Source: Methyloversatilis sp. (GTDB lineage: Bacteria > Pseudomonadota > Gammaproteobacteria > Burkholderiales > Rhodocyclaceae). Taken from it: 64,000 nucleotides of DNA. This document shows positions 16,817 to 60,224 of the stretch, piece after piece. The position numbers and the translations under genes were made by a program. Positions within the stretch are counted from its first letter, which is position 1. Each line of letters starts with the position of its first letter. Below the pieces are notes generated by a model that had not been told where the DNA came from, did no database searches, and was given only the letters and a program-made list of their open reading frames with translations. The stretch covers positions 124,001-188,000 of the forward strand of contig NZ_JAUYRO010000053.1 of the NCBI RefSeq assembly GCF_030696805.1, given 5' to 3'.

Positions 16817-19800
16817 GCGGCCGCGGCTGGTCGCGCCGCATGTGCTGCTGGGCATCGCGCTGCTGGTGGCGCTGTTGCTGGTCGTGCTCTATCCGTATCG
16901 CGAGCTGGTGCAATACACGCTGAACGCGACCCGCGGCGACACGCTGACCATCGCCTATCTGCGCAATCTGTTGCGCACCGACCCGGACAATCCCGAACTG
17001 CGCCTGGCGCTGGTGCGACAGGCGCTGGCACGGCGCGACTACGACGGTGCGCGCTTCGCGCTCGCGCCGCTGCTGTCCGCTACGCCAGCCGGCGCCGCTG
17101 GCACCGAAGCGCGCTGGGTCGAATGGACGGTGTTCGAAAGCGAGCTGCTGGCCAGCCTGCCCGGATCTGCACGGCGCGCCGAACTCGAGGCGACCCTGCC
17201 CGAAAAGCTGCGCCGCACCGTGCTGATCGACGGCCTGACCGACCAGAACCGCATGGCGCTGGTCGAACGTGCGCTGTCCTGGGGGCAGGCGGTGCTGGCG
17301 CTGGAATTGCTGTCGGGCTTCACGCGCGAAGGGGCGCGCCCCGACGCGCGCATCTATCGCGAGGCGGCGAAGGAATTGCTGGGTCACGGCGAATACCAGA
17401 ACGCCGCGAAAATCCTGCTGTTGCTGCGTGCCGCCGAACCTGATGCCGCAAACCGCCGCCAGCTCTACCTGCAGGCCATCCGCATCCTGCAGTCGGGCAA
17501 CTTGCTGGCGCTGGCGCTCGAAACGGCCGAACGCGAACTGGGCGAACTGTCGGGCGACACCGAAGTGCTGTACTACCTGGTCACGCTGGCGCGCGCCGCC
17601 AACCGTCCCGACGCGGCAGCGCGCTTTGCGCGCGCCATGCTGAAGCTGTCGCTGCAGCAGCAACTGCGCCGCACGCTGCTGGCGCAGTCCGGCTTCGATG
17701 CCCAGCCCTGGCGGGTGGCGACGAATGGCGTGCCCGATCTGCCATTCGATGACCGTATCTACACGCTCGGTTTCGAAGCCTTTCTCGGCAACCGCCAGCT
17801 CGACGACGCACAGCGCGTCGCCGCATCGGCGGTGCGCCAGGCGCCCGACAGCATGATCTGGCGCGAGCGCCTGGCCACGTCGTCCGAGTGGGCCGGCAAG
17901 CCGCAGGAAGGGCTGGACCAGTGGCTGGTCATCGCCCGGCGCACCGGTCGCGAAGACGCGTGGGACGCAGTGCTCAGGCTGGCGCCCGGTCTGCTCGACG
18001 ACGAAGCGCTGCTGGCCGGCCTGCGTCACCGCATTGCGCGCCAACCCGGCGACAGCCGCCTGCTGAGCGCCATCATCGCCACCTATGAACGGCTCGGCAA
18101 ACCGCGCGAGGGCATCGAATTCCTGCAGGGCGTGGCCGGTGCAAACCCGCCGCTGCCGGTGCTGGTTGCGCTGGCCGATCTGGCCGAACGCGCAGCCGAC
18201 ATCGATCTCGCACTGGCCACGCTGGCACGCATCGATGCCACCGCCACGCCGGATGTGCGTCGCACATCGCGCCGCGCGGCGCTGCTGATTTCGCGCAACC
18301 GCTTCGATGAAGCGATGGCCGCGCTCGAAGCGGCCCGCCCGGCGGCGACCGACGCAGATCGCGATTACTGGCGGCTGTATTCGTCGCTGGCACAGCTACT
18401 GCAGGACGACGACCGGGCGCGCGATGCGCTGGCCCGCATCACGCGCTTCGACGATGTCGAGGTGTCCGAACTGCAGGATCTGGTCGAACTGCTGCTGGAT
18501 GTCGCACCGCTGCAGGCGGCGCGCGAGGCTGAGCGCGGCTGGCGCCACTACGGCGATCGAACGTGGCTGATGCGCACGCTGGATCTGTATGTGTTCACCG
18601 GCCGGTCGCAGGACATCGGCCGCATCATCGGTGAGCTGTCGGACGCCCAGCGGCGTGATGCCGAACAGCTTCCGCTGTTCCTGCAGATCCGTGCGCGCTG
18701 GCATCAGGCCGCCGGCCGCAAGGCACAGGCGCTGGACGATTTCAGCGCCGCGCTGGCCATCGACCCGGGCTCGGTCGACGTGCGCTCGGCGCTGCTGTGG
18801 CTGTTCATCGATGGCAACGACACGCTGGCGCTGCGCGAACTGCTGGCGCGCCACGAACAGGCGTGGGCGCGCGAGCCCTTGCTGCATGACGCGCTGGCTG
18901 CGTCCTGGCAGGCGCTGTCGCGCCCGCAGACTGCGCTCGAACGCTATCTGCTGCCGCGCATCGGCGCGCAGCGCGGCGACTTCCTCTGGATGATGAACGT
19001 TGCCGATGCACTGGAACAGAATCAGGAAACGGAGCGCGCCTGGCGGCTGCGCGAACAGCTGTGGCGCGCCGAGCGGCCGAAGTTGCGGGTGCTCGCCGCC
19101 GACGACATCGCGCAGTTGCAGCGACTGGCGCGCGTGCGCCTGGCGCGCGCGCAGCAGCCGGGCGACGCATCGCATGCGCTGCTGCGCGAGGTGCTGCGGC
19201 TCGATCGCGCGCCCGACGGCGAATGGCTGCCCGCGGCGAAGGAACTGGCGCTGTCCTGGTTCATCGATCACGGCGAGTACGAGGCGGTGCGCGGCTTTCT
19301 GTGGCACCAGTACGGTCGCGCGCTGAACCGTCCACTGTGGGCCGACATCACGGCCGCGCTCGGTCAGGGCGACGTCGCGGCGGTCGGCGCGCTGCTCGAG
19401 CAGTGGGACGAACGCCTGCCGCGCTACGACCGCGTCAACAGCGCGCGTATGGTCGGCGACGTGCGGCGTGCCCAGACGGCCGCCTTCGAAACGATGGACG
19501 CACAGCGCGACGACGCGCCGCTGCACCTGCAACTGAGCGACGCGCTGCTCGATTACGCCGACCGCTTCGACCTTGACATCGCACAGCGGGAACTGGCCGG
19601 CATCGACGAGCGCCAGCAGTCGGCCACGCTCGACATCGGTGTCGCGCCCGACCTGCGGTTCAGCGTCGAGTTCGGTTCGATCACGCGCGGCCGCGGCGAC
19701 AACGTCGATTTCTCGGCGGTGCCGGACGAACGCGAATACCTGCTCGGACGGCTGGCCTGGGCGCACGACGACGGCGTGACCCGCATCACCGTCGGTCAGC

Positions 19801-54242: not shown

Positions 54243-54905
54243 TCACAGCGTCACCAGTTGATGGCGGGCGGCGAAGCTCACCAGTTCGACCGGGTTCTTG
54301 ATGTCGAGTTTTTCGAACAACCGTGCCCGATAGGTGCTGATGGTGTTGGCCGACAGCGACAGTTCGCGTGCGATGTCCCCCACGCTGTGGCCGCTGGCAA
54401 GCAGCTTGAGCACCTGCATTTCGCGGTTCGACAGGCTGTCGAGAGGGCTGGCGGGGGTTTCGCTGCGTACGCCGAAGGCCAGCCGCTCGGCCAGTTCGGG
54501 TGTCACGAACAGGCCGCCGCGCGCGACGCGGGCGATGGCGTCGAACAGCTGTTCGGTCGAACAGCCCTTGTTCAGGTAGCCCGCAGCGCCGCTCTTGAGC
54601 GCGCGCACGCCGAACTGTGACTCGGGATAAGTGGACAGCATCAGCACCGCGACCTGCGGGAATTCGCTGCGCAGCTGCTTCAGCACATCGAAGCCATCCC
54701 GGTCATTGAGCGCGATGTCGAGCAGCACCACGTCGGCGCCGTCGGTGCGCAACAGGCGCATCAGGTCCGGGCCGCCAGCCGCTTCGCCGACGACGGCGAT
54801 GGCCGGGTTTTCACCGAGGATCTGCGCGATGCCCCGGCGCAACATCAGATGATCGTCAACGATGACGACGCGCGTGGGGCGGGTAGCGTCCGTAAAGGAA
54901 TTCAT
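54243..54905 (-). CDS. NarL/LuxR-family response regulator
   Basis: 220 residues: receiver domain with Asp63 (LLDIALNDRDG) and the acidic pair Asp17-Asp18, then a GerE-type helix-turn-helix from about 155 (LSNREMQVLKLLASG, SANTISTYRARLFEKL). It overlaps the gene of its cognate kinase by four bases. Targets unknown. Confidence 0.93.
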   Translation of the reverse strand: MNSFTDATRPTRVVIVDDHLMLRRGIAQILGENPAIAVVGEAAGGPDLMRLLRTDGADVVLLDIALNDRDGFDVLKQLRSEFPQVAVLMLSTYPESQFGVRALKSGAAGYLNKGCSTEQLFDAIARVARGGLFVTPELAERLAFGVRSETPASPLDSLSNREMQVLKLLASGHSVGDIARELSLSANTISTYRARLFEKLDIKNPVELVSFAARHQLVTL

Positions 54906-56074
54906 CGGGTCGAATCCGGTACGCGCAGCGTGACCGTCGTGCCGGCGCCCGGTGCGCTGTCGATCTGCAATTCGCCGCCCAGCACGCGGGTGCGTTCGTA
55001 CATGCCGAGCAGGCCGAACGAGGTGGGCTGTGCCGGCACCTGCATGCCGCGACCGTTGTCGCGGATCTGCAGCTCGATGCGGCTGGCGGTGCTGGTCACG
55101 TCCACCTGCACTTCGGTGGCGCCGGCATGGCGCGCGATATTGGTCAGCACTTCCTGCACCACGCGATATACCGCCACTTCGGCGCTGCGTCCGAGCCGGC
55201 GCTCCGGCCCGGCGTCATGCACATTCAGCGTGCAGCGCACGCCGCTGCGCGCCTGCATTTCCTGCAGCTGCCATTCGATCGCCGCCCACAGACCGAGGTG
55301 GTCGAGCACGCCGGGCCGCAGGTCGGTCAGGATGCGCCGCACCGCACCCAGCGCCTGCTGGGTGACGCCCACCATGTCGTCGAATTTGCGCTCAAGCGTG
55401 TCGTCGCGCGCCACCTTGGCGCGCAGCCAGTTCAGGTCGAACTGCAGCGCGGTCAGCGAGGCCCCCAGTTCGTCGTGGATTTCGCGTGCGATGTGGGCGC
55501 GCTCGTCCTCGCGCACCTGCTGCAGATGGGCCGACAGCCGCTGCAGCGCGCCGTGCGACTGCTGCAGCCGCTCATTGGCCTGCGACAGTGCGGCGGTGCG
55601 CTCCGACACGCGTCGTTCCAGTTCGGCATGGTTGGCGCGCAGCACCGCCTCGGCCTGCTTGCGTTCGCTGATGTCGGCAAAGGTGACCACGGCGCCGACG
55701 ATCTGGCCGGCGTCGCGGATCGGGTAGGACGTGTACTCGGCTGGAAAGGCACTGCCGTCGCGCCGCCACAGCACTTCGGATTCGACCCGCACGCCGCGCC
55801 CTTCCTGGAAGGCGCGGAAGATCGGGCAGTCCTCGACTTCGTAACAGCGGCCGTCGGAATGCGCGTGATGGATCAGGTAGTGCATGTTGCGACCGAGCAC
55901 TTCGTCGGCGTCGAAGCCGATCAACTCGGCACCGGCGCGATTGATGAAAATGCAGCGGCCCCGCTGGTCGATGCCATAGATGCCCTCGCCGGCCGATTCC
56001 AGCAACATTTCAAGCTGGTGCCGCCATGCAGCGTGATGCGACAGGTGGTGGAGGTTGGCGAACACGGTGCGCAC
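54902..56074 (-). CDS. PAS-domain histidine kinase, NarX/DesK type
   Basis: 390 residues without membrane helices. A PAS domain (about 20-140) has the HHAHSDGRCYEVEDCPIFRAF segment, whose His and Cys residues could bind a metal or cofactor. A coiled coil follows, then HisKA_3 with the phospho-acceptor His in REIHDELGASL near 199, and a HATPase domain ending RDNGRG and FGLLGMYERT. The start is uncertain: the GTG at 56074 is used, and a GTG nine bases on is possible. Cytoplasmic sensor partner of the overlapping NarL-type regulator. Confidence 0.9.
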   Translation of the reverse strand: MRTVFANLHHLSHHAAWRHQLEMLLESAGEGIYGIDQRGRCIFINRAGAELIGFDADEVLGRNMHYLIHHAHSDGRCYEVEDCPIFRAFQEGRGVRVESEVLWRRDGSAFPAEYTSYPIRDAGQIVGAVVTFADISERKQAEAVLRANHAELERRVSERTAALSQANERLQQSHGALQRLSAHLQQVREDERAHIAREIHDELGASLTALQFDLNWLRAKVARDDTLERKFDDMVGVTQQALGAVRRILTDLRPGVLDHLGLWAAIEWQLQEMQARSGVRCTLNVHDAGPERRLGRSAEVAVYRVVQEVLTNIARHAGATEVQVDVTSTASRIELQIRDNGRGMQVPAQPTSFGLLGMYERTRVLGGELQIDSAPGAGTTVTLRVPDSTR

Positions 56075-56202: not shown

Positions 56203-57615
56203 TCAGGCAGGCGCGTCGCGCACCCGCAGTGCGCCGTCGACGTCGCCGGCTTCGATCAGCCCCAGTTCTTCATAGCGACGCAGCTTGCGCCACAGCGACA
56301 CGCGGTCGATGCCGAGCAGGCGCGCTGCCATGGCGCGGTTGCCGCCGACTTCGGCCAGCACGTCGAGGATGTGCGAGCGCTCGACGCTTTCCAGCGTTCG
56401 GATTTCGCCGCCCGCGCGGCTGCCCGCGTCGCGATGAACCACCGACGCGGCAAATCCGGCCGGCAGGTCCGCCTCGCCCAGCATGCTGCCGCTGGCCAGT
56501 GCCACGCCGCGCTCAATCAGGTTTTCAAGCTCGCGCACATTGCCCGGGTAGTCGTAGGCGCACAGCTTCTGCATCGCCGATGGCGCGATGGCCGTCACCG
56601 GCTTGCCCATCGCCAGTGCGGCGCGGCGAAGGAACTGCTGAGCCAGCAGCGGAATGTCTTCGCGCCGGGCGCGCAGCGGCGGCAACTGCAGCGTGACCAC
56701 ATTGAGCCGGAAATAGATGTCCTGCCGGAAGGTGCCTGCTTCGACCGCGCTGCGCGGTTCGCGATTGGTGGCCGCGAGAAAGCGCACATCGGCACGCACC
56801 GGCTCGGTACCGCCGACCCGCATGTATTCCCGCTCCTGCAGCAGGCGCAGCAGCTTGACCTGCATCGCCGCCGACATTTCGGTCACTTCATCGAGAAACA
56901 GCGTGCCGCTCTGTGCCGCCTCGACCAGACCGCCGCGCGATTGCTGGGCGCCTGTGTAGGCGCCCTTTTCGTGACCGAACAGTTCGTTGGCCAGCAGGTC
57001 TTCGGTGAGCGCGCCGCAATTGACCGCCACGAAAGGCCCGCCGGCACGTCGGCTGTGCGCGTGCAGGTGGCGCGCCAGCAACTCCTTGCCGGTGCCGGTC
57101 TCGCCGACGATGAGCACATTGCAGTCGGTCGGCGCCACGCCGCGCGCAATGTCGAGAATGGCGCGCATGCCGCCGTCGCGCGTGATGATGCGTTCTTCGG
57201 CGGCCTGCTCGACCAATTGGCGCAGACGGTGGTTTTCGGCGCGCAGCTGCGCCTTGTCGGCCGCCTCGCGCACCAGCTTGCGCACCTCGCCCAGCCGGAA
57301 TGGCTTGGAGATGTAATAGAAGGCGCCGGTGCGCATGGCCTCGACCGCCGATTCGGTGGTCGCAAAGCCGGTCACCACGAGCACCTCCATGTCGGGCCAG
57401 GCCTCGCGCGCGCGGCGCAACAGATCAAGGCCGTCCATGCCGGGCATGCGCAGGTCGGTCAGCATCACCTCGAAATCACGCGCGCGCAGCAGCGCCAGCG
57501 CACTGTCGCCGTTGTCGGCGGTGGTGACATCGAAGCCGTCGCGCCGCAGGGCAGTGGCCAGCCCTTCGCGGGCAACTGCCTCGTCATCGACCAGCAGTAC
57601 GCGTGCTCCACTCAT
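56203..57615 (-). CDS. NtrC-family sigma-54-dependent response regulator
   Basis: 470 residues: receiver with Asp54 (LTDLRMPGMDG), AAA+ domain with Walker A GETGTGKE (171-178) and the sigma-54 contact loop GAYTGA (218-223), and a C-terminal Fis-type helix-turn-helix (NRAMAARLLGIDRVSLWRKLRRY). All elements needed to activate sigma-54 promoters are intact. It overlaps its kinase gene by four bases. The sigma-54 promoter at 59239, divergent from that kinase gene, is an obvious candidate target. Confidence 0.94.
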   Translation of the reverse strand: MSGARVLLVDDEAVAREGLATALRRDGFDVTTADNGDSALALLRARDFEVMLTDLRMPGMDGLDLLRRAREAWPDMEVLVVTGFATTESAVEAMRTGAFYYISKPFRLGEVRKLVREAADKAQLRAENHRLRQLVEQAAEERIITRDGGMRAILDIARGVAPTDCNVLIVGETGTGKELLARHLHAHSRRAGGPFVAVNCGALTEDLLANELFGHEKGAYTGAQQSRGGLVEAAQSGTLFLDEVTEMSAAMQVKLLRLLQEREYMRVGGTEPVRADVRFLAATNREPRSAVEAGTFRQDIYFRLNVVTLQLPPLRARREDIPLLAQQFLRRAALAMGKPVTAIAPSAMQKLCAYDYPGNVRELENLIERGVALASGSMLGEADLPAGFAASVVHRDAGSRAGGEIRTLESVERSHILDVLAEVGGNRAMAARLLGIDRVSLWRKLRRYEELGLIEAGDVDGALRVRDAPA

Positions 57616-59048
57616 GATGTTTCCTCCGCCGGTATCCAGACCGTGACGCAGGCGCCGCCGTCCGGTTCGCGAGCGATGCTGACCCGACCGCCGTGTTCGG
57701 CTGCGATTTCATGCACCACGAACAGCCCGAGTCCGGAGCCCTTGCCGACCGGTTTGGTCGTGAAGAAAGGGTCGAACACGCGCTGCAGATTGCCCGGCGC
57801 AATGCCGGGGCCGTTGTCGCACACGTCGATCGCCGTGCCGCCGTCGCGCTGCGTGCCGCTGACCACGATGTGCGGCGTGGTTGCAGTTTCGTCACAGGCT
57901 TCAAGGGCATTGCGGATCAGATTGAGCAGCGCCTGCTGGATGCGCTGGCCGTCGGCGTGGATTTCCAGCGCCGGATCGATGTGCAGCGTGACGGCGTCGC
58001 CCGCGTCCGGCTGTTCGGCGCGCAGCAGCGCGATGGTTTCCTCGACCAGTGGGCGCAGCGGCTGGCGGACCAGCGCGAAGTGGCTGTCGCGCGCGAAGGC
58101 CAGCAGCGTGCGCACGATGCGCTGGGCGCGCTGCACCTGATCGTCGATCTGTTCGACAAACGCATTGAGCGGGGTGGCGTCGCCCCGCTCGGGTTCTTCG
58201 AGCAGCAGCTGGGCGTTGAGCGAAATATTGGACAGCGGGTTGTTCAGCTCGTGTGCCACGCCGGACAGCATGGTGCCCAGCGAGGCCAGCCGCGCGGTGC
58301 GCAGCACGGCGAGCTGGCGTTCTTCAAGGTCGCCGAGCGCACGGTTGAAGGCGTCGACCAGCGCCGCGATCTCGTCATCGTGATCGCGCGGCGTGAGGCG
58401 CGCCAGATTGCCGGTACCGACCCGCGCGAGATCGCTTTCGACCTCGCGCAGCGGCACCACGACGCGTCGGGTCACCAGTTGGCCGATGCCCAGAACCAGC
58501 ACGATGGCGGCGAACATGATCACGTACAGCCGCGATTCCTGACCGGTCAGCGCGCTGCGCATGGCTTCGCGCGCCTGGTCGGACAGGCGCTCACTGCTGT
58601 CGAACACCTGTTTGCCAACCGCCTCCATGCGCTCTTCCAGCGGCGAAATCGGGTCGGTCGGCTTGATGCGGCGCTGCAGGCGGTCGTCCAGCAGGTCGCG
58701 CCAGTCAGACAGCGACTGCTCCAGTTCGTCGAGCGCAAAGCCGGGTGCGGCGCGCTGCATCAGCGGGCGGTCGCGCCCGATCAGCGTCAGCGCCTCTTCC
58801 GCCTTGCTCACCGCCGCCTTCAGTTCCGATGGCTTGCGGAACAGCAGGTAATTCTTTTCAAGCCGGCGCGCCTCGCGCACCACATCGTGCATGCGCGTGA
58901 CCTTGTATTCGTCGTCGACGTGAGACAGCAGGTCGCGCACCTGTTCGAGTGCGGCGAACACCAGCAGCACGAACAGGCCGCCGAGCACGATGTAGCCGAG
59001 CAGGATCTTGCCGTGCAGCGATCGGGGCAACAGTTTCATCAATTGCAT
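57612..59048 (-). CDS. membrane sensor histidine kinase partner of the sigma-54 activator
   Basis: 478 residues from the ATG at 59048; ATGs at 59108 and 59039 are alternatives and none has a good binding site. Two membrane helices (about 13-34 and 173-195) flank a helical periplasmic sensor. A HAMP region follows, then HisKA with His266 (LSGVAHELNNPLSN) and a HATPase domain (DNGPGI, GKGSGLGLF). The NtrB/ZraS-like kinase core and the overlapping NtrC-type regulator make a complete two-component system. The signal is unknown. Confidence 0.9.
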   Translation of the reverse strand: MQLMKLLPRSLHGKILLGYIVLGGLFVLLVFAALEQVRDLLSHVDDEYKVTRMHDVVREARRLEKNYLLFRKPSELKAAVSKAEEALTLIGRDRPLMQRAAPGFALDELEQSLSDWRDLLDDRLQRRIKPTDPISPLEERMEAVGKQVFDSSERLSDQAREAMRSALTGQESRLYVIMFAAIVLVLGIGQLVTRRVVVPLREVESDLARVGTGNLARLTPRDHDDEIAALVDAFNRALGDLEERQLAVLRTARLASLGTMLSGVAHELNNPLSNISLNAQLLLEEPERGDATPLNAFVEQIDDQVQRAQRIVRTLLAFARDSHFALVRQPLRPLVEETIALLRAEQPDAGDAVTLHIDPALEIHADGQRIQQALLNLIRNALEACDETATTPHIVVSGTQRDGGTAIDVCDNGPGIAPGNLQRVFDPFFTTKPVGKGSGLGLFVVHEIAAEHGGRVSIAREPDGGACVTVWIPAEETS

Positions 59049-59238
59049 ATTGAAACGTTGCGTTGCGGATTTCAACGGTAATGCGAACGGCGCATCGGTC
59101 AGTTTCATGCGGGTTTGCGTCCATCGGGCTGGCATGAATAGCCCGAGGCGATGCATTGTGCAACGTCTGCTGGATGTGAAAGCCGGGGCCGGATGGGCGA
59201 GCATAATGAAATCAAAGACTTGAGATATTTTATTTAAC

Positions 59239-59254
59239 TGGCACATCCCCTGCT
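59239..59254 (+). promoter_or_regulatory. sigma-54 promoter facing away from the kinase gene
   Basis: TGGCACATCCCCTGCT matches the -24/-12 consensus TGGCACGNNNNTTGCW at all but two positions, with GG at 59240-59241 and GC at 59252-59253 correctly spaced. Transcription should start near 59265. A palindrome TGCA-TTG-TGCA lies upstream near 59152-59162, a possible activator site. Confidence 0.75.
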
Positions 59255-59265
59255 AGAACTTCCGT

Positions 59266-59398
59266 GCCAGCTCTGTGGCCACCGCCCGACGGCTCCTCGG
59301 ACGGTGGCCGGTGGCAGGGGGGCAATGGGGAGGCCGGTTTGCCAGCGGACTGAACCGGTTCTTTTGTGCGGCTCGCGACTCCTTCGCGAGCCGTTTTT
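59266..59398 (+). ncRNA. candidate sigma-54-dependent small RNA (about 133 nt)
   Basis: The span from the predicted sigma-54 start to a strong terminator holds no credible gene: reading frames inside it have no binding site and run through the terminator. It can fold strongly. GGCCACCG with CGGTGGCC forms a perfect 8-bp stem extended outward by TGCCA/TGGCA; a second hairpin pairs CCGGTT with AACCGG; the terminator stem follows. Between them lies a G-rich single-stranded segment (GGGGGGCAATGGGGAGG). Small RNAs driven by sigma-54 and an adjacent kinase/activator pair are known (GlmY/GlmZ with GlrK/GlrR). The identity of this one is an inference. Confidence 0.6.
59369..59398 (+). terminator. strong intrinsic terminator
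   Basis: CGGCTCGCGA-CTCCT-TCGCGAGCCG is a perfect 10-bp stem followed by TTTTT. No protein gene on this strand lies upstream of it for over 2 kb, so it most likely ends the sigma-54 transcript. The rest of the gap to ccmA (59399-59573) shows only a weak -10-like GATAAT at 59519. Confidence 0.88.
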
Positions 59399-59573
59399 CT
59401 TTGTTTGTCGTTGCCTTTTACGTGTTCTCGCGAGTTGCCTTGTCGCCCTCCGGGCCGCGACGCGATGCCGGCAACCCGGCCCGCTCACATCACCAGACCT
59501 TCGCGCAGCGCTTTAACGGATAATTCACGGCTGCCCATCCGTCACCGCTCCGTTCCTGCTGTCCGAACCGTCA

Positions 59574-60224
59574 ATGTCTGAATCTTCCGCCCCGCTGCTC
59601 GAAACCCGCGCCCTGACCTGCATGCGTGGTCGCGCGCGGCTGTTCGCCGGGCTCGACCTGACGGTCGGCGAAGGCGAACTGGTGCATGTCGCGGGTGCCA
59701 ACGGCAGCGGCAAGACCAGCCTGCTGCGCATTCTTTGCGGCCTGTCCGAACCGGAATCGGGCGAGGTGCGCTGGCGTGGCCAGCCCGCCCGGTCGGTGCG
59801 CGACGATTGGCGCGGCGGCATGCTGTACCTGGGTCACCGCAACGGCGTGAAGGACGATTTCACGCCGCTTGAGAACCTGCATGCGAGTGCCGCCATCGCC
59901 GGCGAGCGCATCGCCGACACGGTGCTGCTCGAGGCGCTGGCAGACATCGGACTGGCCGCGCGTCTCGATGTGCCGGCGCGCAGCCTGTCGCAGGGTCAAC
60001 GCCGGCGCGTGGCGCTGGCGCGCCTGCTGGCCGATACGCGCAGTGCGCTGTGGATACTCGACGAACCCTTCACCGCGCTCGACGTGCGCGCCGTCGCGGT
60101 GCTCGCTGCAGCGATGGCGGCGCATCTGCGACGTGGTGGCGCGCTGATCTACACCACGCATCAGCCGGTGGACATCGATGCCGAGCGCCGGCAGACATTC
60201 AATCTGGACGAGTACGCATGCTGA
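59574..60224 (+). CDS. ccmA: haem exporter ATP-binding protein CcmA
   Basis: 216-residue ABC ATPase. Walker A GANGSGKT at 41-48, signature LSQGQRRRVALARLL near 138, and Walker B LWILDEPFTALD. With CcmB and CcmC it drives release of holo-CcmE in cytochrome c maturation. First gene of ccmABCDEF; overlaps ccmB by seven bases. Confidence 0.94.
   Translation: MSESSAPLLETRALTCMRGRARLFAGLDLTVGEGELVHVAGANGSGKTSLLRILCGLSEPESGEVRWRGQPARSVRDDWRGGMLYLGHRNGVKDDFTPLENLHASAAIAGERIADTVLLEALADIGLAARLDVPARSLSQGQRRRVALARLLADTRSALWILDEPFTALDVRAVAVLAAAMAAHLRRGGALIYTTHQPVDIDAERRQTFNLDEYAC

Follow-up and report, generated by a model that had tools for sequence, protein, structure and literature searches.

The window, a 64,000-nucleotide stretch of DNA from a Methyloversatilis sp. 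with a genome of 4.19 Mb, harbors a putative small RNA gene between a minus-strand kinase/regulator pair and the plus-strand ccmA gene. The region has the following features, in which the RNA and its control sites are predicted from sequence.

56203-57615, minus strand: NtrC-type response regulator (domain and family searches), found 3' of the kinase in relatives too; proposed activator of the RNA promoter
57612-59048, minus strand: membrane sensor histidine kinase with HAMP, HisKA and HATPase_c domains (domain and family searches); start MQLMKLLPRS
59042-59056, no strand: weaker activator-type dyad ATTGCATATTGAAAC, 10/12, overlapping the likely kinase start codon
59062-59076, no strand: weaker activator-type dyad GTTGCGGATTTCAAC, 10/12 (dyad scoring, locus comparison)
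59150-59164, no strand: activator-type dyad GATGCATTGTGCAAC, 11/12 to GTTGCA-N3-TGCAAC, centre about 82 bases upstream of the -24 element
59210-59222, plus strand: IHF-like site AATCAAAGACTTG, between dyads and promoter
59239-59254, plus strand: sigma-54 -24/-12 element TGGCAC-ATCCC-CTGCT (TGGCACATCCCCTGCT), exact consensus, kept in 12/12 orthologous loci
59264-59398, plus strand: predicted small RNA of about 135 nt (134-135 nt in 12/12 loci, with covariation), start position predicted
59265-59324, plus strand: 5' hairpin domain, lower stem UGCC/GGCA, upper stem GGCCACCG/CGGUGGCC (fold, consensus structure, covariation)
59291-59298, plus strand: loop segment GGCUCCUC, invariant in 12/12 loci, Shine-Dalgarno-complementary and predicted to be mostly exposed; proposed seed
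59324-59365, plus strand: second conserved block AAUGGGGAGGCCGGU...AGCGGA...ACCGGUUCUUUU, second hairpin, almost invariant
59368-59398, plus strand: intrinsic terminator, stem kept in 12/12 loci
59574-60224, plus strand: ccmA, next gene downstream, outside the RNA unit, above the curated CcmA cut-off

The original prediction named a membrane kinase, an NtrC-type activator and ccmA as the neighbours of the RNA, and domain and family searches bear out all three identities. The best NCBIfam matches include ZraS/AtoS for the kinase and AtoC/NtrC/ZraR for the regulator, all below cut-off. The longest kinase frame begins at 59246, inside the sigma-54 element; conservation of the N-terminus favours the start at 59048. 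Behind this pair, on the same strand, lies a second two-component pair (54243-56074, minus strand), consisting of a PAS/HisKA_3 kinase and a NarL/GacA-like regulator whose best NCBIfam match, UvrY/SirA/GacA, is also below cut-off.

What had been called a near-consensus promoter is an exact match to TGGCAC-N5-YTGCW. The window holds two such exact matches, and 17 sites with at most one mismatch are found against 6.3 expected. As the whole genome contains 35 exact matches to the pattern and 21 to its reverse, which is near chance, the promoter match alone is weak evidence. The sole other exact match in the window is at 18388-18403 on the plus strand (TGGCACAGCTACTGCA). Five terminator-like sites occur in 2 kb (1.8 expected), and the fold of 59260-59400 (-73.5 kcal/mol, z -2.57) is equalled by 3 of 200 shuffled sequences. 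The terminator itself agrees with the perfect 10-bp stem described originally: 10 Watson-Crick pairs and one G-T pair make up an 11-pair stem at 59368-59394, followed by TTTTTC.

The comparison with relatives is more telling. Among 101 genomes searched, 12 of the 13 from Methyloversatilis, its own included, have a match to the 221-bp region. In the thirteenth (G009), the match to the kinase starts only at residue 344 and the locus (L083) ends there with the contig, so that the RNA is present in 12/12 genomes in which its place is assembled. Three short DNA matches of 34-47 bases, in two other genomes of the same search (G052 and G059), do not include the RNA on inspection by eye. Throughout the 12 genus loci, the promoter (TGGCACA-N4-YTGCT), an RNA of 134-135 nt and the terminator stem are kept jointly, and the flanks vary. 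The joint survival in relatives of promoter, terminator and stems is thus upheld within the genus; because all 12 loci come from this one genus, they do not count as independent events. As judged by this comparison, it is the joint conservation that exceeds chance, beyond promoter or fold singly. The start of the RNA was placed at a conserved purine 11 bases past the C of the -12 element, and this predicted position is a purine in 12/12 loci.

The long hairpin with a perfect 8-bp stem that had been predicted is present (GGCCACCG/CGGUGGCC), and this part of the RNA also carries the comparative support for the structure. The alignment has 11 rows (L004 was omitted, being identical to L002 over the RNA) and yields a consensus of 42 pairs, 7 of which show changes on both sides. 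All of these belong to the upper helix of the 5' hairpin (7 of its 13 pairs); the lower helices show one-sided changes only. The main hairpin accumulates 23 both-sided cells, a value reached by 0 of 500 shuffles and compared with 1-8 for slid structures. This covariation result concerns the upper helix of the first hairpin, the remaining helices varying little or not at all; in the second hairpin, 9 of the 11 outer pairs are constant.

Further invariant elements in the aligned RNAs are AAUGGGGA, the loop AGCGGA, and UCUUUU. The G-rich open segment of the original prediction is indeed invariant, yet part of it is paired in the predicted fold. Equal in invariance and, in the models, better exposed is loop GGCUCCUC, of whose eight bases about six are mostly unpaired when the sequences of the window and of two orthologues (L006 and L010) are folded. 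The loop and the G-rich segment could also pair with one another in cis, forming 8 pairs with one bulge, but among 5000 shuffled loops 167-276 pair equally well. In 12/12 loci, 45 codons or more can be read from the ATG of AAUGGGG without a stop. Protein coding in the RNA region is unlikely because this frame runs through the terminator and because the bases conserved behind the ATG are used in different frames by the two clades (MGRPVCQRTEP.. and MGRPVDLADST..), owing to single-base indels.

The region upstream of the promoter is also conserved. TGCAACG half-sites are common to the 12 genus loci and, when compared with related loci, resolve into the dyad GTTGCA-N3-TGCAAC. The dyad at 59150-59164 is the only site in the 64-kb window that scores at least 11/12, and a matching block is found in 12/12 genus loci; the counterpart of the dyad at 59042-59056 scores 11/12 in L006-L012. 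Each genus locus has 3-4 dyads of at least 9/12. Over 34 promoter regions (12 from the genus and 22 from the related modules described below), 85 such dyads are found against 7.5 expected, a count that speaks of sharing rather than of independent prediction, since the consensus was derived from the same loci. As sequence matches, dyads of at least 11/12 occur in 32 of the 34 regions (12/12 genus, 20/22 other), the two lacking one (L072 and L074) belonging to the most distant kinases. Between dyads and promoter, sites were scored against the IHF consensus, WATCAA-N4-TTR. A site of this kind begins 29-30 bases before the -24 element in 11/12 genus loci and is perfect in 9/12, where 0.02 would be expected from mononucleotide shuffles. 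Among the 22 other loci it is perfect in 2 (0.06 expected) and scores at least 8/9 in 10 (1.2 expected), in several of them at the same distance as in the genus. Dyads, an IHF-like site, a -24/-12 element and the RNA follow one another in the usual layout of an NtrC-type promoter.

Kinases related to that of the window occur in other Rhodocyclaceae too. They were found in 26 of 150 family genomes (4 of them Methyloversatilis) at an E value of 1e-60 or better, and in 36 of 395 (12 Methyloversatilis) at 1e-75. Of the 24 non-genus loci L051-L074, 23 have a related regulator behind the kinase, the exception (L055) ending with its contig. Among 26 classified non-genus loci (L051-L074, L089 and L091), 22 have a sigma-54 site of at least 10/11 upstream of the kinase that points away from it; no such divergent site is found in the other four, three of which (L052, L053, L057) are from one genus and one (L073) lies near a contig end. 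Of four further loci inspected by reading, L090 and L092 have sites only on the opposite strand or at a distance from the start of the kinase, and L093 and L096 have no sigma-54 site upstream of the kinase. Of the 22 divergent promoters, 8 are followed by a terminator stem ending 72-131 nt past the promoter (RNA type), and 14 lack such a terminator and lead into frames of at least 35 codons (ORF type). An ATG/GTG frame of at least 35 codons also runs through the terminator in five of the eight RNA-type loci (L054, L056, L058, L059, L060), and these were taken as chance frames.

In a kinase tree of 35 rows, which included 7 of the 12 genus loci, Methyloversatilis groups with 7 of the 8 RNA-type loci and 6 promoterless rows in a clade (99/96) apart from all 14 ORF-type loci. 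The eighth RNA-type locus (L071), whose branch is long, is placed next to the ORF type, and the kinases of genus g93 (five loci in the tree) have no divergent sigma-54 site. Transporter genes lie near two of three ORF-type loci that were read further, of the TauE/SafE and sulfate-permease families at L098 and of the sulfate-permease family at L101. A small frame of recurring look (for example MKRYAKLLQRLSNALAFANAGNFREF) follows the sigma-54 site in six ORF-type loci (L061, L062, L065, L067, L069, L089), and an NCBIfam search with the L089 and L069 frames matched no model. Other ORF-type relatives have a frame beginning like RKVLLAVREGH.

At five loci of two genera (L051, L055, L058, L059, L060) the predicted RNAs hold GCGGACAACMAGGAGATTC, which occurs in 5 of 385 genomes and at these loci only, and in this second group, which lies next to related kinases, ACAACMAGGAGAUUC is unpaired in the predicted fold. 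Model R1, built on the Methyloversatilis RNA, reaches 10.6 bits at best against the RNAs of other genera and thus gives no useful score, so that homology between the RNAs of the various genera is not demonstrable. They do share CGGACA and a purine-rich linker, the hexamer being within chance by a rough estimate.

As far as searched, the sequence of the RNA is restricted to Methyloversatilis. Over 395 family genomes, R1 finds the 12 Methyloversatilis loci at 130-153 bits, followed by 10 weak matches at 22-30 bits, none of which has a sigma-54 site; GGCTCCTC occurs in two of these ten loci, away from the match. Over 300 genomes of the order, its own genome alone matches at an E value of 0.01 or better. 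These genome searches score 8-11 candidates per genome, a depth at which a distant relative could be missed. An exact-pattern scan of 84,980 species genomes returned eight records, six from Methyloversatilis (including M. discipulorum, M. thermotolerans and M. universalis EHg5) and two from metagenome-assembled genomes of Betaproteobacteria or Gammaproteobacteria. The same scan of viral contigs gave a single match (L046), with both pieces of the pattern and, by eye, no promoter or terminator, which was set aside as chance. Nor does the RNA, or anything else in the window, reach the gathering threshold of a family in Rfam release 15, in keeping with the original prediction, in which it was not recognised as a known RNA family. 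The weak matches (sX11 at 26.5 of 70 bits for the window, BjrC68 at 24.2 of 39 for L006) are largely based on the terminator, and those of the window, L006, L058 (RF02278, 19.1 of 50 bits) and L051 differ from one another, even between orthologues. A literature search that included Methyloversatilis small RNAs found no report of this RNA.

Conservation in 12/12 loci, the upstream sites and the related divergent modules support the idea that 59264-59398 encodes a sigma-54-dependent regulatory RNA, and on these comparisons it is probably controlled by the adjacent two-component system. We infer transcription, the start point, activation by this regulator and the mode of action; for activation, position and comparison point to the neighbouring regulator. 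The membrane kinase would sense a signal and phosphorylate the NtrC-type regulator, which would bind the GTTGCA-N3-TGCAAC dyads 80-190 bases upstream. IHF would bend the DNA between the dyads and the promoter, where sigma-54 RNA polymerase at 59239-59254 would start an RNA that ends at the intrinsic terminator, before ccmA. Acting in trans, this RNA may use loop GGCUCCUC to cover ribosome binding sites of the GAGGAG type, thereby repressing translation, with the invariant AAUGGGGAGG segment serving as a second contact or as a lid for the loop.

Action by base-pairing is put at about an even chance on present sequence evidence. Pairing of the anti-Shine-Dalgarno kind is suggested because loop GGCUCCUC is invariant and largely exposed, and the loop, which would be able to cover ribosome binding sites, is the likeliest working part of the predicted RNA. 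The original prediction also considered three GGA motifs as possible binding sites for CsrA/RsmA. All three are present and only two of them are invariant; CsrA (PF02599) is found in 0 of 13 genus genomes by a search that was positive in 3 of 14 control genomes, and a role as a CsrA/RsmA sponge is thereby ruled out.

A possible target was sought among conserved leaders. GAGGAGCC stands at the start of a gene of the PQQ methanol/ethanol-dehydrogenase family (TIGR03075, above cut-off) in 9 of 13 genomes, the ATG following one base later in eight and a later start being used in G012. In three of the remaining genomes (G000, G008, G011) the only copy found is a different one, which has AAGGAGAAGCC as its leader and lies close to or at the end of a contig; G006 yielded only a more distant relative. 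Further occurrences of GAGGAGCC are inside mreB and at a gene with HEAT repeats, examined in G001, G006 and G011, which represent both clades. As a control, sites of GAGGAGNC were listed in G001 and most of G010, of the 13 genomes; GAGGAGCC before an ATG accounts for 9 of the 86 control sites in G001 and is not enriched over control 8-mers. Such conserved leaders are therefore ordinary, so that no target is claimed and the PQQ leader is a lead only.

Other explanations take the same sites differently. Since ccmA lies downstream on the same strand in the genus and the structured RNA adjoins the terminator, the RNA could be the sigma-54-driven leader of the ccmABC operon, attenuated at the terminator. 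An attenuator of this kind is very unlikely here: the terminator stem is complete in 12/12 loci and the consensus fold offers it no rival pairing, the gap between terminator and first candidate ccmA start ranges from 75 to 190 nt (11/12 loci; none for L009) against an RNA of constant length, and none of the 24 non-genus loci tested showed a ccmA next to the module. A coincidence of a sigma-54-like site and a terminator is barely credible, the abundance of exact promoter matches in the genome being the one point in its favour; joint conservation, covariation and the conserved upstream sites all contradict it.

Two further proposals keep the control by the neighbouring pair and alter what the RNA does. 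In the first, the G-rich segment or the GCGGA loop would titrate some protein (not CsrA), much as CrcZ acts on Hfq/Crc. The invariance of AAUGGGGA and AGCGGA would suit such a role, as would the unpaired ACAACMAGGAGAUUC exposed by the RNAs of two other genera. This variant in mode nevertheless seems unlikely, given that CsrA was found in 0 of 13 genomes, that no repeated protein-binding motif of the kind carried by CrcZ or RsmZ was seen, and that loop GGCUCCUC is equally invariant. A variant in target, in which the RNA would pair with the kinase/regulator mRNA and so control its own regulators, the way NfeR1 acts on ntrB, is distinctly unlikely. The regulator start region in the window's clade contains GGAGGAA and the loop contains UCCUC, but only about 5 continuous pairs would form, and regulator start regions were recovered for just 5 of the 12 loci, all of the window's clade. 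NfeR1 itself silences ntrBC with an anti-Shine-Dalgarno seed (PMC10746234).

As far as the proposed control goes, the preferred reading, a regulatory RNA driven by the adjacent kinase/regulator pair, would resemble GlmY under GlrR or CrcZ under CbrAB, and the small RNA itself is one for which no report was found. GlmY and GlmZ of the Enterobacteriaceae are sigma-54-dependent small RNAs controlled by GlrK-GlrR, with GlrR sites of the form TGTC-N10-GACA, according to PMC4987338. The likeness lies in a sigma-54-dependent small RNA with an NtrC-family regulator acting at upstream sites, as is predicted here. The Methyloversatilis RNA differs in having no Rfam match, another activator site and a divergent gene order. 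For CrcZ/CrcY of the Pseudomonadaceae, PMC6292655 describes an RpoN-dependent small RNA tied to CbrAB and names a cbrB-crcZ co-transcript. An RpoN-dependent small RNA tied to a kinase/NtrC-type pair, predicted here, would be alike to that extent; crcZ lies after cbrB, whereas the Methyloversatilis RNA is divergent from the kinase and no CA-type repeats were seen in it. CrcZ titrates Hfq/Crc through CA motifs.

For the rhizobial NfeR1/alpha-r14 RNAs, PMC10746234 reports that an anti-Shine-Dalgarno motif is ultraconserved in the unpaired regions of hairpins whose stems vary. The conserved Shine-Dalgarno-complementary loop GGCUCCUC, invariant in 12/12 loci and largely exposed in the three predicted folds, is comparable, although there three hairpins carry CCUCCUCCC and here a single loop carries GGCUCCUC. 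The arrangement of a divergent sigma-54 output beside a kinase/NtrC-type pair also has a counterpart. In the gene order of E. coli and Salmonella, zraP is divergent from zraSR; zraP encodes a protein, and the Methyloversatilis output is a predicted RNA.

The locus adds a putative small RNA that is strongly conserved in a genus of methylotrophs; since its promoter, its activator and the site for that activator are all predicted, it is amenable to study with few mutants. A tentative idea, and one that could well be wrong, is that a kinase/NtrC-type subfamily of the Rhodocyclaceae maintains a fixed enhancer-IHF-sigma-54 module directed away from the kinase, that the payload of this module was exchanged during evolution, with reading frames in one branch and a genus-specific small RNA in another, and that the anti-Shine-Dalgarno loop of the Methyloversatilis RNA may control methylotrophy genes such as the PQQ-dehydrogenase gene with the GAGGAGCC leader. 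In four more genera of the family, among those examined, short RNAs with a terminator seem to lie opposite a module of this kind. If so, it would be a natural system for studying why a conserved switch in signalling acts through an RNA in place of a protein. A minor observation concerns genome G140: its loci L055 and L073, both close to the end of a contig, hold almost identical kinases, owing either to a duplication or to the assembly.
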